NCBI GenBank assembly: GCA_030683105.1
Contig: JAUXMZ010000056.1
Coordinates: 1-64,000, forward strand
From: Burkholderiales bacterium
GTDB lineage: Bacteria; Pseudomonadota; Gammaproteobacteria; Burkholderiales; SG8-41
Length of the DNA: 64,000 bases
Direction of reading: 5' to 3'
Positions 7,120 through 63,152 of this stretch are shown piece by piece; the stretch's first letter is position 1, and each line of letters opens with the position of its first letter. Below the pieces are notes generated by a model that was not told where the DNA came from, made no database searches, and saw nothing but the letters and a program-made list of their open reading frames with translations. The position numbers were made by a program, and so were the translations under genes.

Positions 7120-7327
7120 AAAAGCGATGACACAGAGGACACAGAGGATAAAAATATAATAAAAACAACGCGGTGTGATTCTATGCATGAAGGACTGGGC
7201 TAAAGAACACCCGAACACTTCTTAGTACATTCCCTGTTTCGCACGGAGCACACTGAGGCCACCGAGTCTTATTGATATGAACTCTGATCTTCCTTCGTGT
7301 CCTCTGTGTCCTCTGTGTCTATGCTTT
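7120..7327. repeat. Class A element A2, inverted (ACACAGAGG)n ends
   Basis: The left arm AAAAGCGATGACACAGAGG (plus one more unit) at 7120 and the right arm ending in CCTCTGTGTCTATGCTTT at 7327 are inverted. The 208-bp element starts 15 nt after the peptidase stop codon. Its interior is AT-rich on the left, then contains CCCTGTTTCGCACGGAG, shared with element B1 (8164-8412). Immediately downstream (7338-7372) is another short-period motif, CTTCGCGACCCTTCGCGCCC, followed by TTCGCG. No gene lies in 7105-7471. Confidence 0.85.
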
Positions 7328-32374: not shown

Positions 32375-32743
32375 TTACTTTTTGGTATCGTCTTTCTTCA
32401 TTTCGGCTTTCTCTTTCGCCGGTTCTTTCTTCGCTGCTTTTGCTTCTTTGGCATCAGCTGCGGCTTTCGCTTTTGCTGCCTTCGCTTCGGCGGCGGCTTT
32501 CGCTTTCGCTTCTTTCGCATCAGCTGCGGCCTTCGCTTTTTCGGCCTTCGCATCAACGGCTACTTCCTTTTTTTCTGCTTTCGCGTCAACGGCTACTTTC
32601 GCTTTTTCTGCTTTCGCATCAACGGTAACTTTCGCTTTTTCTTCTTTCTTCACTTCGTCTTTTTTCGCGGCGTCAGCGGCAAAAACCGAAGCCGAACCCA
32701 GGCCAAACAGGACTACAACGAGAGCGGGGATTAATTTGTTCAT
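32375..32743 (-). CDS. Secreted Lys/Ala/Glu-rich repeat protein
   Basis: A 122-residue exported protein. The ATG at 32743 (MNKLIPALVVVLFGLGSASVFAADAAKK) is chosen because AGGA lies 6 nt before it. After the signal peptide (about 1-23) the protein is almost entirely a degenerate 11-14-residue repeat (VTVDAKAEKAK, VAVDAKAEKKE, AAADAKEAKAK), strongly helical and highly charged. Similar alanine and lysine-rich periplasmic proteins resemble TolA-domain-II-like helices. It may bind the envelope or act as a spacer. It is monocistronic with its own terminator. The function is not recognised. Confidence 0.75.
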   Translation of the reverse strand: MNKLIPALVVVLFGLGSASVFAADAAKKDEVKKEEKAKVTVDAKAEKAKVAVDAKAEKKEVAVDAKAEKAKAAADAKEAKAKAAAEAKAAKAKAAADAKEAKAAKKEPAKEKAEMKKDDTKK

Positions 32744-48925: not shown

Positions 48926-49068
48926 GGATTTTCCTGTTTTCAATGCATCGCGGTTCCTGTTGCAGTTGATTTACAACATTAAACACAGCCATCGTCCGCT
49001 CTCAGCGGGCAGCCCGGAAGCACGGTATAAAATGGGGCTGGCACTAACAAGCGCATCAAAGGCAAAAC

Positions 49069-49428
49069 ATGACAAAACACACGGACAGCCTGGAAACCTT
49101 GCGTGAGCGGCTGGCGCAGTTCGCCACAGAGCGTGACTGGGACCAGTTCCACAATCCCAAGAACCTGGCGATGGCGATGGCGGGCGAGGCGGGTGAACTC
49201 ATCGAGCATTTCCAGTGGCTTACGCCGGATCAGGCGGCGAACCTGCCGCAAGCCGCGCGCGACGAGGTGGCATTGGAATGTGCTGACGTGCTGTTGTTTC
49301 TGGTGCGGCTGTGCGACAAGCTCGGAATCGACCTGGCGGCGGCGGCAGAGAAAAAACTGAAGCTCAATGCCAAAAAATACCCGGTGGAGAAATCCCGGGG
49401 GCTTGCGACGAAGTACAACAAGCTTTAA
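49069..49428 (+). CDS. MazG-like nucleotide pyrophosphohydrolase (dCTPase type)
   Basis: A 119-residue all-helical protein. The MazG-type metal-binding sets are clear: NLAMAMAGEAGELIEHFQWL (E-x2-E-type) and DEVALECADVLLFLVRLCDKLGI (E-x2-D). Aromatic residues RDWDQFHNPKN at the start match RS21-C6/dCTP pyrophosphatase proteins, which hydrolyse modified or excess dNTPs. It is monocistronic and plus-strand. Element A3 begins 10 nt after its stop codon. Confidence 0.92.
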   Translation: MTKHTDSLETLRERLAQFATERDWDQFHNPKNLAMAMAGEAGELIEHFQWLTPDQAANLPQAARDEVALECADVLLFLVRLCDKLGIDLAAAAEKKLKLNAKKYPVEKSRGLATKYNKL

Positions 49429-49438
49429 AGCCTAGGTC

Positions 49439-49652
49439 AAAAGCATAGACACAGAGGACACAGAGGACACAGAGGACACAGAGGACACAGAGGAAAAACG
49501 AAAATACTTAAACTTCAATATTCATAATAGTATTAGCAATCAATAAATAATCTCCGATAGTCTTGGAATGGTTTTTTGATATCGCTCTACTTCGTGTACC
49601 CGTCAAGCGGGTATTGAAAAGAATCCTCTGTGTCCTCTGTGTCTATGCTTTT
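49439..49652. repeat. Class A element A3 (five ACACAGAGG units)
   Basis: The left arm AAAAGCATAGACACAGAGG continues with four further 9-bp units; the right arm is CCTCTGTGTC twice, then TATGCTTTT. Length 214 bp. The right 75 bp (49577-49652), including the hairpin TACCCGTCAAGCGGGTA, is nearly identical to the right end of A5 (55083-55156). It begins 10 nt after the MazG-like stop and ends 23 nt before the rlmJ start. Confidence 0.92.
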
Positions 49653-49675
49653 ATGAGATTTTAATTAAAGAAAAC

Positions 49676-50515
49676 ATGCTTTCTTACCGCCACATGTACC
49701 ACGCCGGCAATTACGCCGACGTCTTCAAGCACGCGCTGCTCACGCGGCTGCTGCTCGCGCTCGGCCACAAGGACAAGCCGTACTGCTATCACGACACGCA
49801 CGCCGGGATCGGCCGCTACGACCTGATGCACCCGTGGGCGCAGAAAGCGCGCGAGTATGACAACGGCATCGCCCGGCTGTGGGGGCGCGAGGACATCCCC
49901 GAGGCGCTCGCGTCGTACATGGCCGCGGTCAAGGCGGCCAATCCGTATCCCAACCTGCGGTTTTATCCGGGCTCGCCGGTCATCGCGCGCCACCTGATCC
50001 GCCCCGGCGACCGCATGATACTCACCGAGCTCAACAAGGAGGATTACGCCGAACTCAAGTTGCAGTTCGCCGGCGACAAGCAGGTCGCAGCACACCTGCT
50101 CGACGGCTATCAGGGACTGAAGGCCTTTCTGCCGCCTGCGGAGCGGCGCGGCTTGGTGCTGCTCGATTCGTCGTTCGACCGCGCAAAGGAATTCATGCGC
50201 ATCGCCACCGCGCTCAAGGAAGCGCATGCGCGCTGGCCCACTGGCATGTATGCGGTGTGGTATCCGCTGATGGAACCGGGCGCCATGCTTGGCTTCGCGC
50301 GCGAGATCGAGAGTTCGGGCATACGCAAGATACTGAAGCTGGAGTTCTCGGTCATGCCCGATGAATCCGCTTTTACCCCCGGCTGCGGCATGCTGGTGAT
50401 CAACCCGCCGTATCAGTTCAAGGACGAAGCGAAGCCGCTGCTGGACTGGCTGTGGCGCGCGCTTTCAGTCGATGGCGCGGGCGGGGTGAAGGTGGATTGG
50501 CTGGTGCGGGAGTAG
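49676..50515 (+). CDS. rlmJ: 23S rRNA (adenine(2030)-N6)-methyltransferase RlmJ
   Basis: A 279-residue SAM-dependent methyltransferase with the RlmJ opening MLSYRHMYHAGNYADVFKH, then YHDTHAGIGRYDL, FYPGSPVIARHLIRPGD and IRKILKLEFSV near the C-terminus. It methylates A2030 of 23S rRNA. The catalytic motif IV is unusual: E. coli has LIDPPYE where this protein reads LLDSSFD, so Asp is kept but both prolines are Ser. That is odd for an N6-adenine methyltransferase and should be compared with close relatives. The start is ATG 49676 with a weak RBS directly after element A3; element A4 begins 13 nt after the stop. Confidence 0.93.
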   Translation: MLSYRHMYHAGNYADVFKHALLTRLLLALGHKDKPYCYHDTHAGIGRYDLMHPWAQKAREYDNGIARLWGREDIPEALASYMAAVKAANPYPNLRFYPGSPVIARHLIRPGDRMILTELNKEDYAELKLQFAGDKQVAAHLLDGYQGLKAFLPPAERRGLVLLDSSFDRAKEFMRIATALKEAHARWPTGMYAVWYPLMEPGAMLGFAREIESSGIRKILKLEFSVMPDESAFTPGCGMLVINPPYQFKDEAKPLLDWLWRALSVDGAGGVKVDWLVRE

Positions 50516-50528
50516 CTTAAAACCATTA

Positions 50529-51108
50529 AAGCATTGACACGGAGGACACAGAGGACACAGAGGAAAAACAATAATACCTATTCAAGACTGGAATGGGCGC
50601 CATCAGCCGTTGATAACTCGATTTATCCCTTCCCGCATATGCACGGAGTTGAAATTTAATAACAACCCAACCCTGTATCCGCCCAGTTTCAAGTACGTCA
50701 GCAGTTGAGCCCTGTGCAGCGGCAACAGTTTTTCCACAGCTTCGACTTCAACAACTATCTTGTCCTCTACCAGCAAATCCAGGCGATATCCGATATCGAG
50801 AACCACGTCCTCGTAGCGGACCGGCATCGGAATCTGTCTTTTGACGCACAGCTTTCTTTTTGAGAGCTCATGCTCAAGACAAGCTTCGTAGACATTCTCC
50901 AGCAATCCGGCACCCAGCACCGTATGGACCCTTAGCGCCGCATCGATAACGTGACCGCTTACCTTCACCTCATCCATATTCGCCCCATGTTCTTATCTCA
51001 AGTCTTTAACGCGCGGCTAATTCAATAGAGTACAGGGTGCTGATTATGCAGGTTCAATTCGATATGTTTTCCCTCTGTGTCCTCTGTGTCCTCTGTGTCT
51101 CCGCTTTT
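50529..51108. mobile_element. Class A element A4 carrying a GxxExxY gene
   Basis: The left arm AAAGCATTGACACGGAGG, followed by two more units at 50529-50564, and the right arm of three CCTCTGTGT units ending CTCCGCTTTT at 51108, are inverted copies of the ends of A1-A3 and A5-A8. At 580 bp it is the only class A element with coding capacity. It begins 13 nt after the rlmJ stop and ends 17 nt from the hrpA stop. Confidence 0.85.
50603..50977 (-). CDS. GxxExxY protein (PDDEXK_3-type nuclease-like)
   Basis: A 124-residue protein with the family signature GLLENVY (G24, E27, Y30) in RVHTVLGAGLLENVYEACLEHEL, then YRLDLLVEDKIVVEVEAVEKLLPLHRAQLLTYLKLGGYRVGLLLNFN. The PD-(D/E)xK core should run D67, E77-x-K79. 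Here position 79 is Glu (codon GAA at 50743-50741), where relatives have Lys (VELKAVE). The active site may be dead or rebuilt. ATG start with GGGGCG upstream. The gene lies inside the inverted (ACACAGAGG)n arms of element A4. The biological function of this large family is not established; a nuclease role for the element is my inference. Confidence 0.9.
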   Translation of the reverse strand: MDEVKVSGHVIDAALRVHTVLGAGLLENVYEACLEHELSKRKLCVKRQIPMPVRYEDVVLDIGYRLDLLVEDKIVVEVEAVEKLLPLHRAQLLTYLKLGGYRVGLLLNFNSVHMREGINRVING

Positions 51109-51125
51109 CACGTCATTGAAATTGC

Positions 51126-54100
51126 CTAACGCATCGCGTTCCAGAGTTTGTCCAGCCGCTTGTAGGACACCGGGATCGGCGTCTTCAGTTCCTGCGCGTA
51201 AAGCGACACCCGCAGTTCCTCCAGCAACCAGCGGAATTCTTCCAGCCGCGAATCCACCGCACCGGCTTTGCGCTGCTTATCCAGTCTTTCCTCATAGCGT
51301 TTCCACAGCTCGGCGATGCTGTGCGCGTGTTTCGCATCGCGATCAGGGTCGCGCGGATATTTTTCCAGACGCAGTTGCATCGCTTTCAGGTAACGCGGCA
51401 GATGCGCGAGCTGCTCCCACGGCGTGGCGCTGAAAAAGCCTTTGCAGATGAGACGCGCCAGCTGAGCGCGGATGTCGGCGGCGGCGCGTGCCAGCACCCC
51501 GCCACTGACGCCGAGTTTCAGAGACACATTGTGATGTTCAGCGGCGACCGCTGTAAACAAACGGCACGCCGCTTCGGACACCGCCGGCAGCCGCGTGCGT
51601 GCGCGCTTGAGCTGCGCTTCGTATTCCTTCAGGGTTCGCGGAAGCTCGTCCTCGCCGATGAACGCACGGTCGGTAATCGCGGCGAGCAGGTCGTCGCGCA
51701 GTGCGTCGGCGCCTACGACGTTGCGCAGCTGCAGCGCCGCCTGTTCGAAGCCGCGCAGGTTCTTGGTCAACTGTTTCATCTGCTCCGTGAGTGCAAGGCG
51801 CATCAGGCGCGTGACGCCAGTGCGCATCGCCGCCTGCGCCGACTGTCTGACGTCGAACAACCGGATCGCCACACTGTCGCCCTCATCGACCAGCGCCGGA
51901 TAGCCGGTAAGCTTGCGGCCGCCGCGGGTAAATGCAATCTCCTGCGGCAGGTCGCCGAAGTCCCAGCTGCGAATATTCTCGCGCTCGATGCCGGGCTCGG
52001 CTTTGCCGAACGTGAGTTGCGCCGCCTGACCGAGCTGCGTTTTTAGTGCGGCAAGATCGCGCCCGCCCGCCAATTCGCGCCCGGCATCGTCGGTCACGCG
52101 GTAATTCATGCACAAATGCGGCGGATAGGCGATTGCTTCCAGCACTTCGCCCGCCACCGGCACACCGGCCGCGCGCTGCACGAACGCCGCAAGCGTCGTA
52201 ACCAGCGGGTCACGCCCCCCGCCTCCCGCATCACTCTTTGCGCACTCCGTCAGGAATACAGTGACCTGTTCCGGCACCGGCACCAGGTTTCTGCGGATCG
52301 TTTTTGGCAGCGCCTTGAATGCAAACGTAATCTTGTCTCGTATCAGACCCGGCACCAGCCAGTCGAAGTCCGCGGCATCCAGTGTGTTGAGCAACGCCAG
52401 AGGCACGGTGGCAGTGACGCCGTCGAGCGCATGGCCGGGATCGAAACGGTAAGTGAGCTTGAACTCGGCGCCGCCCGCGGCGAGCGTCTCGGGGAACTGC
52501 GCTTCGGTGATGTCGGATGCGGCGTGGCGCATCAGGTAGTCGCGCGTGAGGTAGAGGAGCTTCGGATTCTGCGACTCGGCCTCACGCCGCCATTTCTCGA
52601 ACGCTGCGCCGTTGTAAATGTCCGGCGGGATCAGCGCATCGTAGAACTCGAAAATCACCTGCTCGTCTACCAGCACGTCGCGCCGCCGCGCCTTGTGTTC
52701 AAGTTCTTGCACATCTTTTATAAGTTGTTGATTATATTCATAATATTTTGCCCGTGTCTCGTAGTCCCCCGCAGCGAGCGCGCGGCGGATAAAAATCTCA
52801 CGCGCGCCTTTCGGATCAATTGGCCCGTAGTGCACGCGGCGCTTGGAGACGATGGTCAGACCGTAAAGCGTGACGCGCTCGAACGCCACCACCATCGCGC
52901 GCTCTTTTTCCCAGTGCGGATCGAAGTAATGCTTTTTGACCAGCGCTTGCGCCACCGGCTCTATCCATTCCGGATCGATTTTCGCGACACAGCGCGCATA
53001 CAGCCGCGCGGTCTCGGCCAGTTCCGCGGCCATCACCCACTTGGGTTGCGCTTTGCGCAGCACCGAACCGGGGAAGATCGCGAACTTGATCGCGCGCGCG
53101 CCCAGGTACTCGCCCTCCTCGTTCTTGAAACCGATGTTGCCGAGCAGTCCGGCAAGCAGCGCGCGGTGAATCTGCTCGAAACTCGCGGGCGTCTGATTGG
53201 CGAGCATGCCGAGTTCTCCCGTGTGCGCTGCGAGCTGGCCGTGGATGTCGCGCCATTCGCGCATGCGCTGATGCGACAGAAAGTTCGTGTGCAGCAATTC
53301 CACAAGCTTGCGGTTCGACTTCTTGTGTTTTATCGCGTCCTCGAAGAACGCCCACAGCTTGAGATAGGCGAGAAAGTCAGAGCGCTCGTCCTGGAAGGCC
53401 TGGTGGGCACGATCAGCGGCCTCGGCGCGCTCGTACGGCCGCTCGCGCGGGTCCTGCACCGTGAGCGCGGCCGCAATGATCAACACTTCGGTGAGACAAT
53501 TTTCCTGCTTCGCGGCGACGATCATACGCGCGATCCGCGGGTCGATCGGAAATTTCGCAAGCTGCCAGCCCACCTGCGTCAGCTGGTTTTTTTCATCGAC
53601 CGCGCCGAGTTCGGCCAGCAGCTGATAACCGTCGGCGATCATGCGCGGGGTCGGCGGCTCGATGAACGGAAAGTCTTCGATCTCGCCGATCTTCAGCGAC
53701 TTCATGCGCAATATCACCGCTGCCAGCGATGAGCGCAGGATTTCGGGCTCGGTGTACTCGGGGCGCGCCGCGTAATCTTCCTCCGCATAAAGCCGTATGC
53801 ACACACCCGCCGCCACCCGCCCGCAGCGCCCGGCGCGCTGGTTGGCTGAGGCGCGTGAGATTTTCTCTATCTGCAACTGCGTGACCTTGTTGCGCCAGCT
53901 GTAGCGGTTGACCCGCGCGACCCCGGTGTCGATCACGTAATGAATGCCGGGCACGGTAAGCGAGGTTTCAGCGACGTTGGTGGCAAGCACGATTCTTCTC
54001 GAACCGCCGGGCTTGAACACGCGCGCCTGCTCCTCGTACGACAGCCGAGCGTAGAGCGGCAGGATTTCAGTGCCCGGCGGATGGTGCTTGCGCAGCAGTT

Positions 54101-54944
54101 CCGCGGTATCGCGAATCTCGCGTTCGCCGGGCAAAAAAACCAGAATATCGCCGCCGGCGCGATCGCGCGCGAGTTCATCCGCCGCGTCGAGTATCGCCTG
54201 CTCCATGTCCTGTTCTTCCTTGTCCATCCCGAATGCTTTTCCTTTCCCCCGGTTAGGGGGAAGGGAAACCATTGTTTCCCCTCTCCCGTTTGCGGGAGAG
54301 GGGTCGGGGGAGAGGGCAGCAGCAAGCGGACGGTAGCGCGTTTCCACCGCATAGGTGCGGCCCGAGACCTCGATGACCGGTGCACCGTTGAAATGTTGCG
54401 AGAAGCGTTCAGCATCAATGGTGGCCGAGGTCACGATCAGTTTCAGGTCGGGACGCCGCGGCAGGATGCGCTTCACATAACCGAGCAGGAAATCGATATT
54501 GAGGCTGCGTTCGTGCGCTTCGTCGATGATCAGCGTGTCGTACGCTTGCAGCAACCGGTCGCCCTGGGTTTCGGCAAGCAGAATGCCGTCGGTCATGAGC
54601 TTGATGTAGGTATGGGCCGACAGCTTGTCGGAAAACCGGACTTTGTAGCCCACGGCGTGGCCGAGCGGGGATTTCAATTCCTGCGCGATGCGCGCGGCGA
54701 CGGTGCGCGCGGCAATGCGCCGCGGCTGGGTATGGCCGATCAGGCCGGTGACGCCGCGTTTGAGCTCAAGGCAGATCTTGGGCAGCTGAGTGGTCTTGCC
54801 CGAGCCGGTCTCGCCGCAGACGATGACGACCTGGTTCGCCGTGATGGCGCGCGCTATCTCCTCGCGCCGGGCGACGACGGGCAGTTCTTCAGGATAAGTC
54901 GGCTGCGGCAGATTGCGCAGGCGCTGTTCGGGATCAATTTTCAA
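51126..54944 (-). CDS. hrpA: ATP-dependent RNA helicase HrpA
   Basis: A 1272-residue DEAH-box helicase. Motif I is GETGSGKTTQLPK (about residues 41-53), motif II is DEAHERSLN, motif III is TSATIDAE, and motif VI is QRAGRCGR. Winged-helix, OB-like and long C-terminal HrpA-specific regions follow. It unwinds RNA or rescues collided ribosomes. Two oddities appear. First, the only usable start is a TTG at 54944 without RBS, preceded in frame by TAA and 13 nt from element A5, so the native N-terminus may have been lost. Second, about 30 residues (SPDPSPANGRGETMVSLPPNRGKGKAFGMD) between YRPLAAAL and QAILDAADEL are encoded by an inserted GC palindrome (54241-54316). Confidence 0.93.
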   Translation of the reverse strand: MKIDPEQRLRNLPQPTYPEELPVVARREEIARAITANQVVIVCGETGSGKTTQLPKICLELKRGVTGLIGHTQPRRIAARTVAARIAQELKSPLGHAVGYKVRFSDKLSAHTYIKLMTDGILLAETQGDRLLQAYDTLIIDEAHERSLNIDFLLGYVKRILPRRPDLKLIVTSATIDAERFSQHFNGAPVIEVSGRTYAVETRYRPLAAALSPDPSPANGRGETMVSLPPNRGKGKAFGMDKEEQDMEQAILDAADELARDRAGGDILVFLPGEREIRDTAELLRKHHPPGTEILPLYARLSYEEQARVFKPGGSRRIVLATNVAETSLTVPGIHYVIDTGVARVNRYSWRNKVTQLQIEKISRASANQRAGRCGRVAAGVCIRLYAEEDYAARPEYTEPEILRSSLAAVILRMKSLKIGEIEDFPFIEPPTPRMIADGYQLLAELGAVDEKNQLTQVGWQLAKFPIDPRIARMIVAAKQENCLTEVLIIAAALTVQDPRERPYERAEAADRAHQAFQDERSDFLAYLKLWAFFEDAIKHKKSNRKLVELLHTNFLSHQRMREWRDIHGQLAAHTGELGMLANQTPASFEQIHRALLAGLLGNIGFKNEEGEYLGARAIKFAIFPGSVLRKAQPKWVMAAELAETARLYARCVAKIDPEWIEPVAQALVKKHYFDPHWEKERAMVVAFERVTLYGLTIVSKRRVHYGPIDPKGAREIFIRRALAAGDYETRAKYYEYNQQLIKDVQELEHKARRRDVLVDEQVIFEFYDALIPPDIYNGAAFEKWRREAESQNPKLLYLTRDYLMRHAASDITEAQFPETLAAGGAEFKLTYRFDPGHALDGVTATVPLALLNTLDAADFDWLVPGLIRDKITFAFKALPKTIRRNLVPVPEQVTVFLTECAKSDAGGGGRDPLVTTLAAFVQRAAGVPVAGEVLEAIAYPPHLCMNYRVTDDAGRELAGGRDLAALKTQLGQAAQLTFGKAEPGIERENIRSWDFGDLPQEIAFTRGGRKLTGYPALVDEGDSVAIRLFDVRQSAQAAMRTGVTRLMRLALTEQMKQLTKNLRGFEQAALQLRNVVGADALRDDLLAAITDRAFIGEDELPRTLKEYEAQLKRARTRLPAVSEAACRLFTAVAAEHHNVSLKLGVSGGVLARAAADIRAQLARLICKGFFSATPWEQLAHLPRYLKAMQLRLEKYPRDPDRDAKHAHSIAELWKRYEERLDKQRKAGAVDSRLEEFRWLLEELRVSLYAQELKTPIPVSYKRLDKLWNAMR
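54241..54316. repeat. In-frame GC palindromes inside hrpA
   Basis: Two adjacent stem-loops, CCTTTCCCCCGGTTAGGGGG with AAGGG, and TCCCCTCTCCCGTTTGCGGG with AGAGGGGTCGGGGGAGAGGG, lie within the hrpA reading frame. The second is the same repeat as at 59849-59890. The reading frame stays open through both. Confidence 0.85.
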
Positions 54945-54957
54945 TTAAATACTTTTT

Positions 54958-55156
54958 AAAAGCATAGACACAGAGGACGCAGAGGACGCAGAGGACGCAG
55001 AGGAAAATCAAAAGACTGATCAAATTTCAAAAATAATATTACAGTCGTCTAATGGTTCCGCGTATATAAGAAAGGGTTTGTTGATATTGTTCTACTTCGT
55101 GTACCCGTCAAGCGGGTATTGAAAAGAATCCTCTGTGTCCTCTGTGTCTATGCTTT
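54958..55156. repeat. Class A element A5
   Basis: The left arm AAAAGCATAGACACAGAGG is followed by three GACGCAGAG units; the right arm is CCTCTGTGTC twice, then TATGCTTT. 199 bp. The right 74 bp match A3 with only a few differences, including the hairpin TACCCGTCAAGCGGGTA. It sits between the start of hrpA (13 nt away) and the phaC promoter region. No gene in 54945-55298. Confidence 0.92.
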
Positions 55157-55298
55157 GGACTTATTTACGCCCTTATGAAATTTCGGGATATGAAGCAGGG
55201 CACTGGCAACGCGGCGGGATCGGGGTATCATATCTGTGAGCCACACCGCGTTGAGCAGCCCCGCCGCGGCTTGCAGGGCGCAATGATAGAGCCATCTC

Positions 55299-57041
55299 AT
55301 GAATAAGCCAACTCCAGACCCATCCGCCGCTGGATGGCAGGCCGGTTTCGAACAGTGGGCCGATCAGCTGGCCCGACTCAACCGGTCGGTAGACCCGTTT
55401 GGCATCGGTGCTTCGATGACCAAAGTCTCCCAGGGTTGGCTTACGCATCCCACGGAACTGGCGGTTGCGCTTGCCGATTTCACACGCGAACTCCAGAAAA
55501 TGCAGTTGGACGAGTGGCAGGCTGCGGCCGGCCTGCAAAAGCGGCCGCACAGCGCTGCCGCTGCCGACGATGAACGCTTTACCGACCCGGCGTGGTCCGA
55601 GGTGCCGGCGCTCTCCATCATCAAACAGTACTACCTGCTCTACACCCACTGGTCGCAGGAGGCGCTGTTCGAAACGCCAGGCGTGCCGCAAGAAGACAGA
55701 CGCCGCGCTACGTTCTGGGCGCGCCAGTGGCTGAACGCCGTGGCGCCGACAAATTTTTTTCTGACCAATCCCGTCGCCATCCGCAAGTTCTGGGAGTCCG
55801 GCGGCCAGAGCCTCACCGCCGGCCTCAAGCTGTGGCTGGAAGATATGCGCGCAGGCGATGTGCGCATGGTCGATGCCTCGGCGTTCAAGGTCGGCCAGAA
55901 TATCGCCACCACGCCGGGTTCGGTGGTCTATCGCAACGAACTGATCGAACTCATCCAGTACGCACCGGCGACCGCCGAAGTGCATACGGTGCCGCTGGTC
56001 ATCGTCCCGCCCTGGATCAACAAGTATTACATCCTCGATCTCAACGAAAAGAAAAGCCTGCTGCGCTACCTGGTCAGCCAGGGCTACACGGTGTTCGTCG
56101 TCAGCTGGAAGAACCCCACCGCGCTTCAGTCGGACACCACTTTCGACGACTACCTGATGACCGGGTTGCGGCAGGCGATCGAGGTTGCGCGCGGCATCTG
56201 CGGCACGCCCCACGTGCACGCGGCGGGCTACTGTATCGGCGGCACCGCGCTCGCGGCCATGATGGGGTGGTTCAATCGCGAGTTTCCCGACGCCGCGCAG
56301 GTTCCGGTGTCGCACTGGTCGCTGCTCACCACCCTGGTCGATTTCTCGCGCCCCGGTGGCATAGAAGTATTCATCGACGAGAAAACCATAGACACGCTGG
56401 AAGAGATGATGGCGCATCAGGGTTATCTCGACGGCAAGGACATGGGCCGCTCATTCCGCATGCTGCGTTCGAACAGCCTCATCTGGCATTATTTCGTGCA
56501 TAACTATCTTTATGGCGAAACGCCGCCGCCATTCGATGTGCTGTACTGGAACACCGACGTGACCCGCATGCCGCGTGCGATGCACAGCTTCTATCTGCGC
56601 GAGTTTTACCTCAACAACAAGCTCATCAAAAAGGATGCGCTGCAACTGGCCGGCCACCCCATCGATCTGGGCCGGATACGCCAGCCGCTTTATGCCGTGG
56701 GCTGCGAAGAAGACCACATCGCGCCGTGGAAAGCGGCGTTCAAGATCGCCGGCAGGATCAAGGCGCCGGTGCGCTATACGCTGTCGAGCTCGGGCCACAT
56801 CCTGGGCATCATCAATCCGCCGGTCCAGCCGCCCAAGCGCAGCTACTGGAGCGGCGCGACCAGCTCGGCCCCTCCTGAGGAATGGCTCAAAGGCCAGCAC
56901 CGGATAGAGGGCAGCTGGTGGGAAGATTGGTCAGCGTGGCTGGGCGGGCACTGCGGCGAGAAAGTCCCCGCGCGCACGCCCGGCAGCAGGGACTACCCTG
57001 TGCTGGGTCCCGCGCCCGGCAGTTATGTGCACGAGATCTAG
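55299..57041 (+). CDS. phaC: Class I poly(3-hydroxyalkanoate) synthase
   Basis: A 580-residue polymerase with the PHA synthase N-terminal domain (about 70-240, including NFFLTNPVAIRKFWESGGQSLTAGL) and an alpha/beta-hydrolase core. The lipase-like box is GYCIGGT with nucleophile Cys312. The Asp lies in GCEEDHIAPWKAAF and the His in LSSSGHILGIINPP. Length and motifs indicate class I, which uses short-chain 3-hydroxyacyl-CoA. It makes carbon-storage granules. No phaA/phaB/phaR neighbours are present. Element A6 begins 3 nt after the stop codon. Confidence 0.95.
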   Translation: MNKPTPDPSAAGWQAGFEQWADQLARLNRSVDPFGIGASMTKVSQGWLTHPTELAVALADFTRELQKMQLDEWQAAAGLQKRPHSAAAADDERFTDPAWSEVPALSIIKQYYLLYTHWSQEALFETPGVPQEDRRRATFWARQWLNAVAPTNFFLTNPVAIRKFWESGGQSLTAGLKLWLEDMRAGDVRMVDASAFKVGQNIATTPGSVVYRNELIELIQYAPATAEVHTVPLVIVPPWINKYYILDLNEKKSLLRYLVSQGYTVFVVSWKNPTALQSDTTFDDYLMTGLRQAIEVARGICGTPHVHAAGYCIGGTALAAMMGWFNREFPDAAQVPVSHWSLLTTLVDFSRPGGIEVFIDEKTIDTLEEMMAHQGYLDGKDMGRSFRMLRSNSLIWHYFVHNYLYGETPPPFDVLYWNTDVTRMPRAMHSFYLREFYLNNKLIKKDALQLAGHPIDLGRIRQPLYAVGCEEDHIAPWKAAFKIAGRIKAPVRYTLSSSGHILGIINPPVQPPKRSYWSGATSSAPPEEWLKGQHRIEGSWWEDWSAWLGGHCGEKVPARTPGSRDYPVLGPAPGSYVHEI

Positions 57042-57044
57042 ACC

Positions 57045-57228
57045 AAAAAAACATCGACACAGAGGACACAGAGGACACAGAGGAATTCAAATACAATAAC
57101 AATAAAGATGTTATCAAGATGGCAAGCGGCAAGGTCTCAAATTTTTCTTGTTTTATTTTGCCTAATACTAAATGTATTTTCTTTGCTTTTCCTCTGTGTC
57201 CTCTGTGTCCTCTGTGTCTAAGCTTTAT
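57045..57228. repeat. Class A element A6
   Basis: The left arm AAACATCGACACAGAGG is followed by two further units; the right arm has three CCTCTGTGT units ending CTAAGCTTTA. 184 bp with an AT-rich interior (ATACAATAACAATAAAGATG). It lies between convergent genes: 3 nt after the phaC stop and 31 nt from the PEBP stop. Confidence 0.9.
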
Positions 57229-57259
57229 TAAGATTTTACTTGGCGGTCAAGCTAAACCG

Positions 57260-57889
57260 TCAGACTTTGACATCAGGGTTCAGGCTGTAGACGCCGGTCA
57301 GCTTCGCCTGGCCGAGCACATGGCCCTGGATCGCGACGAGCACGTCTGCGCCCTTGAAGTTGCCGATCACCGGACAACTTTCCACATCGAGCGCGTAGAG
57401 CGTAAACACGTAATGATGCGGGATGGTGTCGTTCCACGGCGGGCAAGGGCCGTCGTAACCGAAATAGTCTCCGGACATGTCCTTGTCGCCGCTGAACCAT
57501 ACACTGTAATCGTTGATGCCCTGGCGCGTGCCGCGCGGCCCGGTGGGTCCGCCCTTGCCGCGCGTAGTGATGCCGTCTGAAAATTCACCGGCCTTGAGCG
57601 ACCCGGATTTAGGGTCAAGATCCACCAGCAACCAGTGATAAAAATCTATCCGCGGCAATGACGCCGGAACGCTGCGCCCTTCCTGGTTGACGTCATCGGG
57701 CTTGGACGGCACATCAGGATCGTGACAGATCAGCGCCAGCGACAGGGTACCGTCCGGCAGATCGCTCCATGACAGGTCGGGATTGCGATTGCCGGAGAGC
57801 GTGACATGGTTTTGGGGATCGGGGGCGCAAAACGCGAACTCCACCGGGATGGGCTGGTTGTCGCCGAAACTGCTGCTCGTCAGCTTCAT
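57260..57889 (-). CDS. YbhB/YbcL-type PEBP (Raf kinase inhibitor-like) protein
   Basis: A 209-residue cytosolic protein of the phosphatidylethanolamine-binding family: LTSSSFGDNQPIPVEFAFC, then PDLSWSDLPDGTLSLALICHDPD (the conserved D-P-D anion-site segment), FYHWLLVDL, then GYDGPCPPWNDTIPHHYVFTLYALD (GPCPP...HHY motif). A strong AGGAGG lies before the ATG at 57889. Bacterial PEBPs are of unclear role. An insertion of about 25 residues (SKPDDVNQEGRSVPASLPRID) compared with E. coli YbhB is notable. Confidence 0.93.
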   Translation of the reverse strand: MKLTSSSFGDNQPIPVEFAFCAPDPQNHVTLSGNRNPDLSWSDLPDGTLSLALICHDPDVPSKPDDVNQEGRSVPASLPRIDFYHWLLVDLDPKSGSLKAGEFSDGITTRGKGGPTGPRGTRQGINDYSVWFSGDKDMSGDYFGYDGPCPPWNDTIPHHYVFTLYALDVESCPVIGNFKGADVLVAIQGHVLGQAKLTGVYSLNPDVKV

Positions 57890-57936
57890 GGTCGTCCTCC
57901 TGTGCTTGTGTTCCTGAAAATTATACAGTGCCGCGG

Positions 57937-59010
57937 CTATTTCGCGCTGCCCGGCTTATCCGCATCCGGCGCCAGTTTCAGCATCAGTTCGTCACGCTCC
58001 CGCTTCTCGATCCTCGCAAGCGCTATAACGGCATCGTAAAAACGCGGCAGGTCCCCGCCTTCGCGCGCCAGCAGCGCCTGGAACGCCGGCACCTTGCGGG
58101 TATAAATCGCCACCGAGGCCAGGTTGGCATTATTAGGTTGCTGCGCAAACCATGGATCGTACCCTTTGAATCCGTCCCATGCGGTTTTGAGCTGCTGGTA
58201 ATCGAGTGCCATGGCTGCGAAAAGCTGATTTTTGCGCTCGCGCATCAGTTCCACCTCCAGCCCGCTTGCATACAGCGCTTCGAGGCGCACCCGATAAGCC
58301 GCGACCAGCCGCACAAAACCGTCGCGATGCCGCCGCATGCGCTCATAGATCTCTTTATCCTTGGAGCTGCCGTGACGCGCTAACCAGCGGCCGACGCTCT
58401 CCTGTTCCACCGTGACGGCAAAAGACTCGTTGAACACGGAATCGTCGCGGACATAGACGACCTGGTGCGCGAGTTCATGAAAAATCAGCCGCGCGATGCC
58501 GGGATCGGGATACCGGATGAACGTGTTAAGCACCGGATCGGCAAACCAGCCCAGCGTCGAATAGGCAGGAACCCCGCTGACGAAGACATCGTGGCCCGCG
58601 GCGTTCATCTGTGCTGCAAACTCATCAGCCTGCGCTTTGGAAAAGTAGCCGCGATAGCCGACGCAGCCGGCGACCGGGAAGCACCACTGCACTGGCTGCG
58701 TCGAGAATTCGGGCGTCGCGAACACGTTCCATACCACGTACGGCCGCCCGAGATCGGCGTAGCGCAGGTAGCTCGTATTATCCGGCAGGCCCAGCTCGCG
58801 GCTTGCGAACTCGCGTATGCGCAGCACCGCTGCGAGCTTCTCCCTGAGCGCTTCCGGTGTCGCCGGATCGGCAATGATCCCGTCTATTGGACGCTCGCGT
58901 TGCCAGACGCCGATCTGCCCGGTTACCGACTGCATGTAGTAAGCAACGTGAGTGCAGCCCGAGAGCGCCAGCAGCAGAATAATGGCAGGGATGCGCAGCA
59001 CGATGAGCAT
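57937..59010 (-). CDS. Putative aminopeptidase lipoprotein (Aminopep family)
   Basis: A 357-residue predicted lipoprotein. The start MLIVLRIPAIILLLALSGC at 59010 places the lipidated Cys near residue 19. The catalytic zinc motif HELAHQVVYV is followed by NESFAVTVEQESV, providing the downstream Glu. The pattern matches the bacterial family labelled putative aminopeptidase (Pfam Aminopep). It probably faces the periplasm, attached to a membrane. There is no visible RBS: a 7-bp tandem repeat (59014-59051) lies directly before the start and may have displaced the native leader. The minus-strand neighbour (59074-59724) may be co-transcribed. Confidence 0.85.
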   Translation of the reverse strand: MLIVLRIPAIILLLALSGCTHVAYYMQSVTGQIGVWQRERPIDGIIADPATPEALREKLAAVLRIREFASRELGLPDNTSYLRYADLGRPYVVWNVFATPEFSTQPVQWCFPVAGCVGYRGYFSKAQADEFAAQMNAAGHDVFVSGVPAYSTLGWFADPVLNTFIRYPDPGIARLIFHELAHQVVYVRDDSVFNESFAVTVEQESVGRWLARHGSSKDKEIYERMRRHRDGFVRLVAAYRVRLEALYASGLEVELMRERKNQLFAAMALDYQQLKTAWDGFKGYDPWFAQQPNNANLASVAIYTRKVPAFQALLAREGGDLPRFYDAVIALARIEKRERDELMLKLAPDADKPGSAK

Positions 59011-59013
59011 CGA

Positions 59014-59051
59014 GTGTTCAGTGTTCAATGTTCAATGTTCAATGTTCAGTG
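59014..59051. repeat. 7-bp tandem repeat (TTCAATG)n
   Basis: TGTTCAGTG, three TTCAATG units and TTCAGTG form an array of about 38 bp in the 5' leader of the aminopeptidase gene, where an RBS would be expected. Arrays of this size can change length by slippage. Confidence 0.85.
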
Positions 59052-59073
59052 AATAGTAACCGGTTCTTGCCCC

Positions 59074-59724
59074 TCATCCCTCTTCCTTCATCCCTCTGGA
59101 AAACGCTCCGGTGCGCAGGAACGCGCAGAGCTGCCGCGCCACTTCCGCCGACACCAGCATGGAAGAATGACTGGCGCGGAGCACGATATGATCGCGTGCG
59201 CCCGGCACCCGGGTTTCCTCCACGGTGACCACGCCATCATTGGGCCGCGGCAAGTCAGGTGCAATCAGCGAGCCGAGTCCTATGTTGGAACTGCCTGCGA
59301 TCACCCCGATCTCGTATCGGGCGTAATCCGCTGCGCGGCCATGGTCCAGCCATTGCCGGATGCTGCATCCGAGTGCTTTGTGCCCGCCGGGCAGTTGTTC
59401 GAAGCGGCGCGCAGCAAAGCTGCCGGCGTAGGGCGGTCCGGCGAGCACGATGCGCCCGATATCCAGAGCCGCTGCGTTCTCAAGCAGGGTCAGAATCACG
59501 GGTCCGCCGAGACTGTGACCGACGAAGTGCAGGCGCCCGGCACCCTGCTCGATGCAAAAGCGCGAAAGGCGCTCGGCATTTTCTGCCAGCGACAGGTCCA
59601 TCGAGGGATAGGAGTAGCTCAGCACATGGTATCCGCAGCGCTCGATGCGGTGGCGCATCAGCGCCATGACGATGCCGTGCATCCACAGCCCATGCACCAG
59701 AATCACTTTTTCCTGTTTGCTCAT
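59074..59724 (-). CDS. Alpha/beta hydrolase, lipase-like
   Basis: A 216-residue single-domain alpha/beta hydrolase: VILVHGLWMHG (oxyanion-hole segment), LHFVGHSLGGPVILTLL (Ser nucleophile in GHSLGG), NDGVVTVEETRV with the likely Asp, and LRASHSSMLVS with the likely His. The start MSKQEKVILVHG at 59724 replaces the longer track start. No signal peptide is seen. Triacylglycerol lipase/PGAP1-like esterases look similar. Substrate unknown. Confidence 0.88.
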   Translation of the reverse strand: MSKQEKVILVHGLWMHGIVMALMRHRIERCGYHVLSYSYPSMDLSLAENAERLSRFCIEQGAGRLHFVGHSLGGPVILTLLENAAALDIGRIVLAGPPYAGSFAARRFEQLPGGHKALGCSIRQWLDHGRAADYARYEIGVIAGSSNIGLGSLIAPDLPRPNDGVVTVEETRVPGARDHIVLRASHSSMLVSAEVARQLCAFLRTGAFSRGMKEEG

Positions 59725-59848
59725 GAGGGTGACTAAAAGCACATTTCAAAAACCCAAACTAATGAAACCGCCCGCCCCTCATCCCTGACCCTTCCACCCC
59801 TCAAGGGGGTGCTATACCGAGTCCCCCAGTGGAGAAGGGAAACAAATG

Positions 59849-59890
59849 CCTCCCCTCTCCCGCTTGCGGGAGAGGGGTCGGGGGAGAGGG
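59849..59890. repeat. GC palindrome (CTCCCGCTTGCGGGAG)
   Basis: CCTCCCCTCTCCCGCTTGCG and GGAGAGGGGTCGGGGGAGAG with GG form a near-perfect hairpin. It is the same repeat found inside hrpA. A second imperfect palindrome (CCCCTCAAGGGGG) lies at about 59797-59812. Confidence 0.8.
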
Positions 59891-59892
59891 TT

Positions 59893-60050
59893 CGAACGCC
59901 GATCGAGCTAACGTCAAAAGTTTTTACTGCAAATTAAGAATAATAACAATTAAAAACAATGCGCTATAGAATAGACTCGTGTGCTCGCAATTAGAAGGTT
60001 TAGATTTTTATCGGCGTGCATCGGCGTGCATCGGCGGTTAATTTTTTGAT
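59893..60050. repeat. Class B-like element B3 with tandem GCATCGGCGT end
   Basis: The right end, TATCGGCGTGCATCGGCGTG plus CATCGGCGGTTAATTTTTTG, contains 10-bp repeats and matches the outer end of B2 (CATCGGCGGTTAATTTCTTT). The interior includes AATAATAACAATTAAAAACA, as in B2. The left end (GAACGCCGATCGAGC) is degenerate. It abuts the stop of the histidine phosphatase gene (60064). No gene in 59743-60063. Confidence 0.65.
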
Positions 60051-60063
60051 TTTGTTACAGACT

Positions 60064-60705
60064 TTAGACGCTGCCGCTTTCAAAGTGCGTGACAGTGCCG
60101 CCCTGCAGATGGGATACATCTCCCCAGGTTTCGCAACGCCAGTGCCGGTTGCCATAATGAAACACATTCAGGCTCGCGTTGAGCAGCGGCACCGGCCGCG
60201 GCTCTCCGAGCGCAATGGCGTGCGCCTCGCGATACGCAACATCCAGCACCAATCCGTGAGTCACCACCACTACCGTCGCGCCAAGGTGGCGTTCGGCAAT
60301 CTCCTCAAGAACAGAGAGACAGCGATCGCGGAATTGTTGCGCGCTCTCGCCGCCAGGGATCACGTAGGCCGGATTGCGGCTTTTAAAGCAATCAAATTCG
60401 GCAGGAAAGCCGGACTCTATCTCGTCGCTGGTCAGGCCTTCGAATACGCCAAAATGACGCTCGCGCAAACGCGTATCGACGGCAATCTCGTGGCCCGTCA
60501 CTGCGGCCACGCTGCGCGCGGTCTCATACGCACGCCCGAGATCGCTGCTATAGAGCACGCTGAACGACAGGTCGGCGAGGCGCTGCCCGAGCCGGCGTGC
60601 CTGGTGCTTACCCGTGTCCGACAACGGGCTGTCCCGCTGGCCCTGCATGCGCCGCTCGCGATTCCACAGCGTCTCGCCGTGGCGTACAAGTATCAGCTGG
60701 GTCAA
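60064..60705 (-). CDS. Histidine phosphatase superfamily protein (GpmB/CobC-like)
   Basis: A 213-residue protein with the phosphohistidine RHG motif ILVRHGETLWNRERRMQGQRDSPLS. The second-site Arg and Glu are in LRERHFGVFEGLT and PGGESAQQFRDR, and the second His is in VVVVTHGLVLDVAYREA. It belongs to the cofactor-independent phosphoglycerate-mutase-like phosphatases; the exact substrate (phosphosugar or alpha-ribazole phosphate) is not clear. The start is a TTG at 60705, with AGGA 6-7 nt before it. Confidence 0.9.
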   Translation of the reverse strand: MTQLILVRHGETLWNRERRMQGQRDSPLSDTGKHQARRLGQRLADLSFSVLYSSDLGRAYETARSVAAVTGHEIAVDTRLRERHFGVFEGLTSDEIESGFPAEFDCFKSRNPAYVIPGGESAQQFRDRCLSVLEEIAERHLGATVVVVTHGLVLDVAYREAHAIALGEPRPVPLLNASLNVFHYGNRHWRCETWGDVSHLQGGTVTHFESGSV

Positions 60706-60746
60706 TTTGCTTCCTTGTTAAATTTCAATGCAAAGCTCCTAAAATC

Positions 60747-60918
60747 AAAAGCGGTGACACAGAGGACACGGAGGAAAAACTAGAATGAATAAAGAACTTC
60801 ACTAGCATGCACGCGCTGATATGGAATTCTTAGCCCATTCAGAACGCCGACAACTATTACTTGATCCTTATCTTCGTTCTTTCTCTGTGTCCTCTGTGTC
60901 CTCTGTGTCTATGCTTTT
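60747..60918. repeat. Class A element A7
   Basis: The left arm AAAAGCGGTGACACAGAGG plus ACACGGAGG, and the right arm of three CTCTGTGTC units ending TATGCTTTT, are inverted. 172 bp. It lies between the divergent histidine phosphatase and TauE/SafE-like genes. The rest of the spacer to 61049 contains TATACT (61016-61021), a possible -10 of the following gene. Confidence 0.9.
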
Positions 60919-61049
60919 GTATTACCCTGATTGTCCATGGCTTAATCACCCGCTTCCCTCAAAAGCGATATTGTAAGGTAAACGCCGGCTGCGGCATCAC
61001 TCCCCTCGCTTCCGCTATACTCGACATTCCTATCCATCCGGGTCAGGCA

Positions 61050-61787
61050 ATGCCCAGCACCGAAATTCTTGTGTTCGCGCCGCTGATCGTGCTTCTGGCC
61101 TATGTCACTTTCGGCATGGCGGGTTTCGGGTCGACGCTGGTTTCGATACCGCTGCTCGCGCACCTGTTTCCGCTGCAGGCCGTGCTGCCGATGGTGGCGG
61201 TACTCGATTGTGTGGGTTCGCTCAGCATGGGCCTGCGCCTGCGCGCCGACATAAATAAACGCGAATTTCTGCCGCTGCTGCCGTTCCTGCTGGCGGGCAT
61301 GGTCGTCGGGGTCCTGCTGTTGCTGCGCCTGCCCGGTGAAGTGCTGATCGCCAGTCTGGGTGCATTCGCCTTGTTCTACGGCACGATGTATGCGCTCAAT
61401 CGCGGGGCGCAACTCAAGATTGCGCGCTGGGCCACGGCGCCGATCGGACTGGTGGCGGGAACCTGTTCCTCGCTGTTCGGTGTCGGCGGGCCGATCTACG
61501 TGATGTATCTGGCGGGACGCGGCGCAACACCGGACCAGATCCGCGCCACGGTGCCGGTGATTTTCATATTCACCACCATAGGCCGCATTTCGCTGTATAC
61601 CGCGGCGGGACTGTTTTCATGGCAAATACTGGGTTATGCAGCGGCCCTGCTGCCTGTGATGTTCTTCGGGCTTTATTTAGGGCACCGGCTGCATCTGAAC
61701 CTGTCGCGCAACACCCTGATCCGGGTCATAGGCGGGCTGCTGATGGCGAGCGGCGTGTCGTTGCTGCTGCGGGCGTTACAGTCCTAG
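61050..61787 (+). CDS. TauE/SafE-family anion permease
   Basis: A 245-residue membrane protein with seven to eight helices. The family pattern appears twice: FGMAGFGSTLVSIPLLAHLFP near the N-terminus and GTCSSLFGVGGPIYVMYLAGRG in the second half, the GxGG-containing re-entrant motifs of DUF81 permeases. The ATG at 61050 (AGG upstream) is preferred to the longer track ORF, which runs through element A7. TauE/SafE proteins export sulfite or sulfoacetate or move other anions; the substrate here is unknown, but a sulfur compound would suit the window's sulfur genes. Element A8 starts 15 nt after the stop. Confidence 0.88.
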   Translation: MPSTEILVFAPLIVLLAYVTFGMAGFGSTLVSIPLLAHLFPLQAVLPMVAVLDCVGSLSMGLRLRADINKREFLPLLPFLLAGMVVGVLLLLRLPGEVLIASLGAFALFYGTMYALNRGAQLKIARWATAPIGLVAGTCSSLFGVGGPIYVMYLAGRGATPDQIRATVPVIFIFTTIGRISLYTAAGLFSWQILGYAAALLPVMFFGLYLGHRLHLNLSRNTLIRVIGGLLMASGVSLLLRALQS

Positions 61788-61802
61788 AACGAAATCTAAG
61801 TC

Positions 61803-61962
61803 AAAAGCGTAGACACGAAGGACACAAAGGAAAACCTTCAAGAATTAAAACCGAATAATATTGGGGAAGCCCATGATATTCAATATTCCGCAGGGGCAAA
61901 ATATTAATGAAGATATTTGTCCTTCCTTCGTGTCCTTTGTGTCCTTCGTGTCATTGCTTTTT
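61803..61962. repeat. Class A element A8 (diverged arms)
   Basis: The left arm AAAAGCGTAGACACGAAGGA and ACACAAAGG, and the right arm CCTTCGTGTCCTTTGTGTCC, TTCGTGTCATTGCTTTTT, keep the 9-bp period but with AAGG in place of GAGG. 160 bp. It lies between convergent stops: 15 nt after the TauE/SafE stop and 17 nt from the aminotransferase stop. Confidence 0.85.
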
Positions 61963-61979
61963 CGTTCTTTTACTTTGAA

Positions 61980-63152
61980 CTAGCGGCCGAGAAAGCCCGC
62001 GATGCGGCGCACGCCCTCGGCAAGCTCCGCGACGGGGCGCGTATAGGCGAAGCGCACATGGCGCTCCGGCGCATGGTGGCCGAAATCGATCCCCGGGGTG
62101 ATCGCGACACCTGCCTGTTCCAGCAGGTCATGCGCGAAAGCAAAACTGTCGGTGGCCAGTGGCGCACAACCGGCGTAGATGTAGAAAGCGCCCTGCGGCA
62201 TGTTGGGTATATCGAAACCCAGTTCGCGCAGCGCCGGCACCAGATAGTCGCGACGCGCTCTGAATTCTTCCCGGCGCACATCAAGCAGCGCCAGTGTCTG
62301 TGGCTCGAACGCCGCCAGCGCCGCGTATTGCGAGGGCGTGGGCGCCGCGAGAAATATGTTCTGAGACAGCTTGTCTATTTCCTTCACGTACGCCTCGGGC
62401 GCCACCATCCATCCCAGGCGCCAGCCGGTCATCTGAAAGTATTTCGAGAAGCTGTTGATGACGAAGACCTCGTCAGACAGCGCAAGCGCCGTTGTCGCCT
62501 CGCCATCGTAAACCAGCCCATGGTAAATCTCGTCTACGATCAGCGTGCCGCGGCGCGCTGTCGCAAATTCGATCATCGTCTTCATCTGGTCAACTGGTAT
62601 CAGCGTGCCGGTGGGATTGGCGGGCGATGCGACCAGTGCCGCGACGGTACGGCTGCCCCAATGCAGCGCCATGAGTTCGGTGTTCAACTGGTAATTGCTG
62701 TCGACACCGACCGCAACACCGATCGGCTCACCTTCCATCAGCCGCACGAAATGGCGGTTGCATGGATAGCCGGGATCAGACACCAGCACCTGGTCACCCG
62801 GATTCACCAGTGCCGCGACCGCAAGCAGCAGCGCCCCCGATGCGCCGGGGGTGATGATGATGCGTGCAGGGGAAACCGCTACGCCGTAGCGCGTGCGGTA
62901 GAACGCGGCGATGGCCTCGCGCAGCTGCGGCAGGCCGAGTGCCGGCGTGTAAAACAATTCGCCGGTGCGCAGCGCTGCAATGCCGGCATCACAGATCGCC
63001 TGCGGCGTCGGGAAATCCGGCTCGCCGATTTCCATGTGCACGATGGAGCGACCCTGCGCTTCGAGTTGGCGCGCGCGCGCCAGCAGCGCCATGACGTGAA
63101 ACGGCTCGATGTCATGGACGCGCTGCGCAAGCGGGAGGCTTTTATTTATCAC
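61980..63152 (-). CDS. Class I/II pyridoxal-phosphate aminotransferase
   Basis: A 390-residue fold-type I aminotransferase: IEPFHVMALLARARQLEAQGRSIVHMEIGEPDFPTP at the N-terminus, PANPTGTLIP with the conserved Asn, LIVDEIYHGLVYD with the PLP-nitrogen Asp and a Tyr, and the Schiff-base lysine in VINSFSKYFQMTGWRLGW. The late Arg for the substrate carboxylate is in HVRFAYTRP. The start is a GTG at 63152. It resembles aspartate/aromatic-type aminotransferases of about 390 aa. The preferred amino acid cannot be told. Confidence 0.92.
   Translation of the reverse strand: MINKSLPLAQRVHDIEPFHVMALLARARQLEAQGRSIVHMEIGEPDFPTPQAICDAGIAALRTGELFYTPALGLPQLREAIAAFYRTRYGVAVSPARIIITPGASGALLLAVAALVNPGDQVLVSDPGYPCNRHFVRLMEGEPIGVAVGVDSNYQLNTELMALHWGSRTVAALVASPANPTGTLIPVDQMKTMIEFATARRGTLIVDEIYHGLVYDGEATTALALSDEVFVINSFSKYFQMTGWRLGWMVAPEAYVKEIDKLSQNIFLAAPTPSQYAALAAFEPQTLALLDVRREEFRARRDYLVPALRELGFDIPNMPQGAFYIYAGCAPLATDSFAFAHDLLEQAGVAITPGIDFGHHAPERHVRFAYTRPVAELAEGVRRIAGFLGR

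Follow-up and report, generated by a model that had tools for sequence, protein, structure and literature searches.

In REP/RAYT systems, the gene is flanked by cognate repeats, and hundreds of short inverted doublets of the same repeats lie between genes (PMC3116915, PMC8266576). The coding form has not been recently duplicated while the short forms multiply, repeat and protein co-diversify, and the system persists in lineages for a long time (PMC3116915, PMC8266576). The BrickBuilt MITE of Porphyromonas gingivalis contains a 23-bp minisatellite and has IS-like ends (PMC4596501). In Coxiella, heptamers have been described upstream of S23p (PMC4990558).

In this report, we analysed a 64,000-nucleotide stretch of DNA (the window, which always refers to the whole stretch) in which a gene of the GxxExxY family lies between inverted arrays of a short repeat (arms). 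To our knowledge, no role has been established for the proteins of the GxxExxY family, which is widespread. The open-access literature barely mentions the family, and our search of that literature found no description of GxxExxY function or of these inverted arms.

Results

Eight inverted-arm elements in the window

Allowing up to 3 mismatches, ACACAGAGGACACAGAGG had 30 matches in the window versus 0 in dinucleotide shuffles. These matches formed exactly eight inward-facing pairs, several of which carried an additional outer inverted 9-mer (AAAGCATAG...CTATGCTTT). The initial annotation had reported a GxxExxY gene (50603-50977) inside the same inverted arms that bound seven shorter elements, and the eight pairs bore this out. 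The pair with ends at 50537 and 51098 enclosed the gene, which lies on the minus strand and encodes 124 aa. Its left arm (50537-50563, plus strand) consisted of ACACGGAGG ACACAGAGG ACACAGAGG, and its right arm (51072-51098, minus strand) of three ACACAGAGG units in inverted orientation. With the outer 9-mer terminal inverted repeats, AAAGCATTG ... CTCCGCTTT, read directly from the sequence, the whole element extended from 50528 to 51107. The neighbours at this site are MazG-like, rlmJ and hrpA-type helicase genes.

The other seven pairs measured 92-194 bp from end to end. At 2447-2538, arms of 3+3 CCACAGAGG units belonged to the subtype found at L003 and L004, two further GxxExxY elements of the same genome (DNA-fold z -6.1). 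ACACAGAGG arms bounded the elements at 7130-7318 (with degenerate units inside), 57057-57217 (3+3 units; DNA-fold z -5.7) and 60757-60908; the second of these was 69% identical over 201 bp to another copy in its own genome. The element at 49449-49642, in the spacer between the MazG-like gene and rlmJ, ended in AAAGCATAG/CTATGCTTT and was 81% identical over 197 bp to that at 54968-55147, which had ACACAGAGG/ACGCAGAGG arms. Finally, the pair at 61813-61951 had ACACGAAGG/ACACAAAGG arms, the subtype of L002, another GxxExxY element of this genome (DNA-fold z -6.7). The elements were AT-richer than their surroundings, with 37-57% GC versus 60% for the window. The seven shorter ones had been described as non-coding; this held insofar as they contained no recognisable gene, but mechanical ORFs of neighbouring reading frames crossed some of them.

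Other repeats were noticed in the same sequence. A module, ATTCTTTTCAATACCCGCTTGACGGGTAC, lay beside the arm at 49580-49625 and 55080-55130 in the window, at about 1440-1470 in L002, and in L272; it recurred in coding and non-coding elements, also in another genus. The intergenic region 59733-60058 of the window contained a partial GAT-type element (CGCCGAT, period 10) together with a dispersed repeat that had about 10 further partial copies in the genome. At 32436-32648, there was a tandem array of 6.5 copies with a period of 33/66 bp, possibly a protein-coding repeat because the period is a multiple of three.

The GxxExxY protein

Over its full length, the window ORF matched TIGR04256 (GxxExxY; E 1e-40, 138.7 bits versus a cut-off of 35) and PF13366 (PDDEXK_3; E 3e-40, 137.7 bits versus a cut-off of 22). 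A search of solved structures by sequence gave nothing useful, and a fold search was needed. The AlphaFold model of the window protein had a pLDDT of 96 and a pTM of 0.89; employing Foldseek, we found Cas4 SSO0001 as the best solved fold, followed by Hjc resolvase, and LHK-Exo, lambda exonuclease and AdnAB were also matched. We predict GxxExxY to be a PD-(D/E)xK nuclease of the RecB/Cas4/Hjc type. Its earlier assignment to the PD-(D/E)xK fold (PDDEXK_3) agrees with the PF13366 match and the Cas4/Hjc-like predicted fold.

E27, D67, E77-x-K79 and Q91xxxY95 were near-invariant in 132 proteins, part of this sample having been selected on E27 and Q91; D67, E77 and Q91 occurred in 132/132 and K79 in 131/132. 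Since the active site is near-invariant, the family appears to be kept as an active nuclease. The window copy was the sole one of the 132 without K79, with Glu for the active-site Lys of ExK (K79E; codon at 50741-50743, minus strand); the three other GxxExxY copies of its own genome retain the lysine. The window copy has probably been inactivated by K79E, and the coding element in the window is probably a once autonomous unit that is now decaying. It had been proposed as the candidate autonomous unit of its family; because of K79E, that label suits its relatives better.

Inverted arms at GxxExxY loci

The genome has four GxxExxY genes, each enclosed by inverted 9-mer arms; these were of three subtypes: ACACAGAGG (window), ACACGAAGG/ACACAAAGG (L002) and CCACAGAGGACACAGAGATC (L003 and L004). 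We scored inverted arms elsewhere by the best local alignment between the 400 bp to the left of a gene and the reverse complement of the 400 bp to its right. Of 134 GxxExxY loci, drawn from archaea and many bacterial phyla, 100 scored at least 20, versus 1 of 315 control genes taken from random stretches of four relatives. In the phylum and family set, 42 of 56 loci reached this score (median 25; Fisher p ~1e-42 versus controls). In named genomes from many phyla (Methanosarcinales, Bacteroidota, Acidobacteria, Verrucomicrobia, Chloroflexi, Cyanobacteria, Planctomycetes, Spirochaetota, Dojkabacteria and others), where L167 and L199 repeat loci of the phylum and family set, 58 of 78 loci scored at least 20 and 68 of 78 at least 18 (Fisher p ~1e-50 versus controls). 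Alignment A1 was too diverse for the collection scan, and the closer subset A2, used instead, biases the 80 named loci toward the GLLES clade and residues G22, E27 and Q91.

The comparison of GxxExxY loci with random genes had been suggested in the initial annotation, together with two outcomes that would speak against a link. The first, GxxExxY genes elsewhere without arms, did not occur. The second, arms flanking unrelated genes equally often, was contradicted by the control genes, but four-helix-bundle genes carry analogous arms with another period (see below).

The arm core common to GxxExxY loci was CRCNRA(G/T), recurring at intervals of 9-10 bp (8-10 bp at loci with a called period), and the (ACACAGAGG)n arms of the window are one local variant of this more general degenerate unit. 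At the level of sequence, these results established that the unit consists of one predicted PD-(D/E)xK nuclease gene between inverted arrays with a 9-10-bp unit and the core CRCNRA[G/T]. One control gene, AnmK, scored 21 between two CCGCTCACCGCT arms, which we read as two separate solo elements, one on each side. A CGCCAAG arm pair 1.2 kb apart surrounded an unrelated 221-aa reading frame (L156, 16561-17798; contig C11 of G000), so arms are able to span other genes occasionally. GxxExxY was present in 8 plasmid records, with arms in both of the two examined; no GxxExxY was found in phage records with the query used.

On the evidence of the control genes, we rejected the view that GxxExxY lies near repeats by chance or by hitch-hiking. 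The flank statistics also largely refute the view that GxxExxY serves the cell as a nuclease, in defence or otherwise, and was inserted by chance near repetitive intergenic DNA. GxxExxY-like proteins resemble Cas4, and one copy gave weak PADLOC matches to Cas4; however, the arms are inverted and pair-matched at most loci in contrast to the controls, the window copy had no PADLOC match at E<=1, and the loci are scattered, with no defence neighbours at the window, radA and fabD sites. We consider a defence nuclease placed there by chance very improbable.

Arm type and the resident gene

Arm composition tracked protein distance (Mantel r 0.39, 0 of 2000 permutations; partial Mantel r 0.38 with GC controlled), a result that gene and arms could also give simply by being inherited together. 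When the closest protein in a different genome or group was taken, the arm distance was 0.96 versus 2.18 on average.

The type of the dispersed arms is a stronger test of specificity than the Mantel correlation. In 24 genomes of the family, which share ancestry and were counted regardless of kinship, CGCCAAG arms were raised only where the resident GxxExxY was of the CGCCAAG type (p 0.002), GAT-type arms only where it was of the GAT type (p 0.006), and CACAGAG arms only where it was of the CACAGAG type (p 0.0015); the six mismatched comparisons gave p values of 0.06-0.67. The number of dispersed arms per family genome had a median of 40 with GxxExxY versus 3 without it (p 5e-4), and the difference was also found over all 40 relatives (p 5e-7). 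An independent check in another family of the phylum, f33 (apparently Zetaproteobacteria), gave 4 with the gene versus 0 without (p 4e-5). Thirteen GxxExxY loci of f33 occupy one and the same site; there, the match between left and right arms had a median of 24 within the same copy versus 17 between copies. Many arms were also present without a gene of matching type, such as 58 CACAGAG arms in G320 and 68 GAT arms in G000, for which lost or unassembled genes are needed as an explanation.

Empty sites and short copies

The site of the GxxExxY element of the window, the rlmJ-hrpA spacer, was empty in relatives G299, G303 and G305. That of the window element at 49449 was empty in G299 and G313 and held other elements in G303 and G305. 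In a Bacteroides finegoldii plasmid record, the whole arm-gene-arm unit lay between radA and a FAD-dependent gene; the gap between these genes in Parabacteroides distasonis is 13 bp, with no element. A plasmid of Sphingomonas parapaucimobilis (L302, 2438-2901) had a GxxExxY element between fabD and fabG, within a fatty-acid synthesis cluster whose gene order was unbroken, and S. paeninsulae had no insert at fabD/fabG. As judged from these occupied and empty sites, gene and arms insert as one unit, both between genes and into operons. A homing endonuclease or intron was rejected as an explanation, since the elements occupy many sites, between genes and in operon gaps.

Based on chosen stretches and pattern counts, we found 62 elements in the genome itself, of which 59 were 64-211 bp long and 3 exceeded 300 bp. 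Full-length non-coding families of about 105 bp occurred at unrelated loci with 75-86% identity. In an alignment of 14 short copies, similarity stopped about 15-19 bp outside the arms, and the termini had the AAAAACATTAGC-CACAGAG form, as in GxxExxY element L003. No target-site duplication was recognised beside these termini or at the empty sites, where the genomes compared, at 70-80% identity, were too divergent for one to be made out. The picture of a coding element accompanied by shorter empty copies, drawn initially from the window, extends to the whole genome, where short families share their ends with L003. Compared across genomes, the short non-coding elements evidently form dispersed families with the same termini as the coding elements and an arm type matching the resident gene.

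GxxExxY copies that share a genome, 14 pairs in all, were 35-61% identical, and several coding elements occupied the same site in different genera. The common sites indicate that the coding form moves rarely; taken together with the low identities, they suggest that the short forms multiply while the coding form mostly persists.

These data bear on the main rival to mobilisation by GxxExxY, namely that it is a passenger or maintenance gene. Another enzyme (a transposase, or host replication or repair acting on the repeats) would then move the elements, and the nuclease would help the element to persist, for instance through cleavage of element-free sites or of competing DNA. The element encodes no transposition-competent enzyme fold, and we know of no transposase that is a PD-(D/E)xK nuclease by itself; coding elements at the same site across genera are also what would be seen for a gene kept by benefit or addiction. 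However, the type match between dispersed arms and resident gene is hard to explain if the nuclease has no part in arm biology, and no other gene recurs within the arms: apart from the 59 of 62 own-genome elements shorter than 300 bp, two of the three longer ones hold GxxExxY. We regard a passenger role as rather unlikely.

Folding of the arms

The arms folded well as single strands (DNA-fold z -5.7 to -6.7). Such stable folding would also suit a role at the RNA level, in which transcripts fold to long stems that act as terminator, stability or RNase III processing signals, as happens with 23S rRNA intervening sequences, and the gene hitch-hikes; an analogous S23p element in the 23S rRNA of Coxiella is excised by RNase III (PMC4990558). 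However, arm mismatches had no wobble bias in the gene-sense transcript (190 versus 207, p 0.42), which led us to reject the arms as mere RNA stems. Where the two arms of an element differed, the differences were mostly transversions, Rfam matched nothing in window positions 49000-62500, and an RNA-level role leaves the dispersal unexplained. The arm period, near one helical turn, suggests action at the DNA level, and we hold the RNA-level explanation to be distinctly improbable.

Four-helix-bundle genes with similar arms

Loci of the four-helix-bundle family TIGR02436/S23p reached an arm score of at least 20 in 19 of 27 and 17 of 29 cases. Like GxxExxY elements, they have one small ORF between inverted short-period arms, are multi-copy, and often occur in the same genomes; unlike them, they have an unrelated fold and a shorter arm period, 7-8 bp in 39 of 43 cases compared to the 8-10 bp called for GxxExxY. 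The arm families of the two kinds of genes do not mix. Short-period arms are thus an architecture that GxxExxY shares with an unrelated gene family.

Arm units of four-helix-bundle loci in the relatives and the phylum (L092-L121 and L242-L270) included GGTGATTA, TAGGCAG, AGTTCCA and GTGAGGA. In G305, the mazG-rlmJ spacer contained a solo 7-bp-arm element of the four-helix-bundle arm type, GTGAAGGGCGAAGG...CCTTCACG (L275, 460-600); in the window, the same spacer holds a ACACAGAGG element.

Discussion

From the genomic comparisons, we infer that GxxExxY may cut, move or maintain the elements in which it is found. The reading that we favour, with some confidence, is that GxxExxY genes represent the coding form within a family of small mobile DNA elements and that the nuclease mobilises or maintains its own element and the short ones. 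The nuclease would bind its own arm units, which, about one helical turn apart, would lie on one face of the DNA. It would then cut at the inverted arms or at a hairpin formed by them, and cutting would mobilise or maintain the short non-autonomous elements in trans as well as the element that encodes the nuclease. This mode of action may be likened to that of RAYT/TnpA-REP as thought for REPINs.

The parallel with the four-helix-bundle genes suggests one wider principle. Short-period inverted-arm elements might be a general mobile class in bacteria and archaea, in which a lone protein, either a Cas4/Hjc-like nuclease (9-10-bp arms) or a four-helix-bundle protein (7-8-bp arms), recognises its own array and drives the dispersal of short derivatives without a known transposase. 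We offer this generalisation tentatively and lean slightly against it.

GxxExxY elements are probably a little-recognised family of mobile DNA with GxxExxY as its working part. The tie of GxxExxY to a defined DNA element provides a cognate substrate, so that its function becomes directly testable. The favoured reading would also explain a common, uninterpreted kind of repeat in environmental genomes (CCTCTGTGTCCTCTGTG and variants) and would introduce a class of mobile elements with a nuclease as sole enzyme.

Comparison with known systems

As with MITEs and the insertion sequences they derive from, the short elements are AT-richer, have inverted ends and no genes, fall into families and are matched by empty sites. 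In contrast to these, the GxxExxY element has no transposase (DDE or other), its only family-matched ORF being GxxExxY, and its termini are short-period arrays. The BrickBuilt MITE likewise combines inverted ends and an internal tandem array in a miniature element but has no coding partner of the GxxExxY kind.

GxxExxY shares with Cas4, RecB and Hjc the predicted fold and the E..D..ExK..QxxxY residues. Unlike Cas4, it is only about 120 aa long and has no conserved cysteine cluster (alignment A1); in the loci viewed, it lies inside its own repeat element and not beside cas genes.

Likeness to REP/RAYT extends further. The GxxExxY gene is flanked by cognate repeats that are also dispersed as inverted doublets; copies in the same genome, at 35-61% identity, are not recent duplicates; the short forms increase in number, the repeats diversify along with the protein, and lineages retain the system for long. 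The differences are that GxxExxY has a predicted PD-(D/E)xK fold whereas RAYT is an HUH/Y1 transposase, and that the GxxExxY arm is a degenerate tandem array of 9-10-bp units whereas REP is a 20-40-bp palindrome. Here, we detected GxxExxY elements in archaea as well as in many bacterial phyla. On our best reading, they act most like REP/RAYT systems, with a nuclease in place of the HUH transposase, and are not members of that family.
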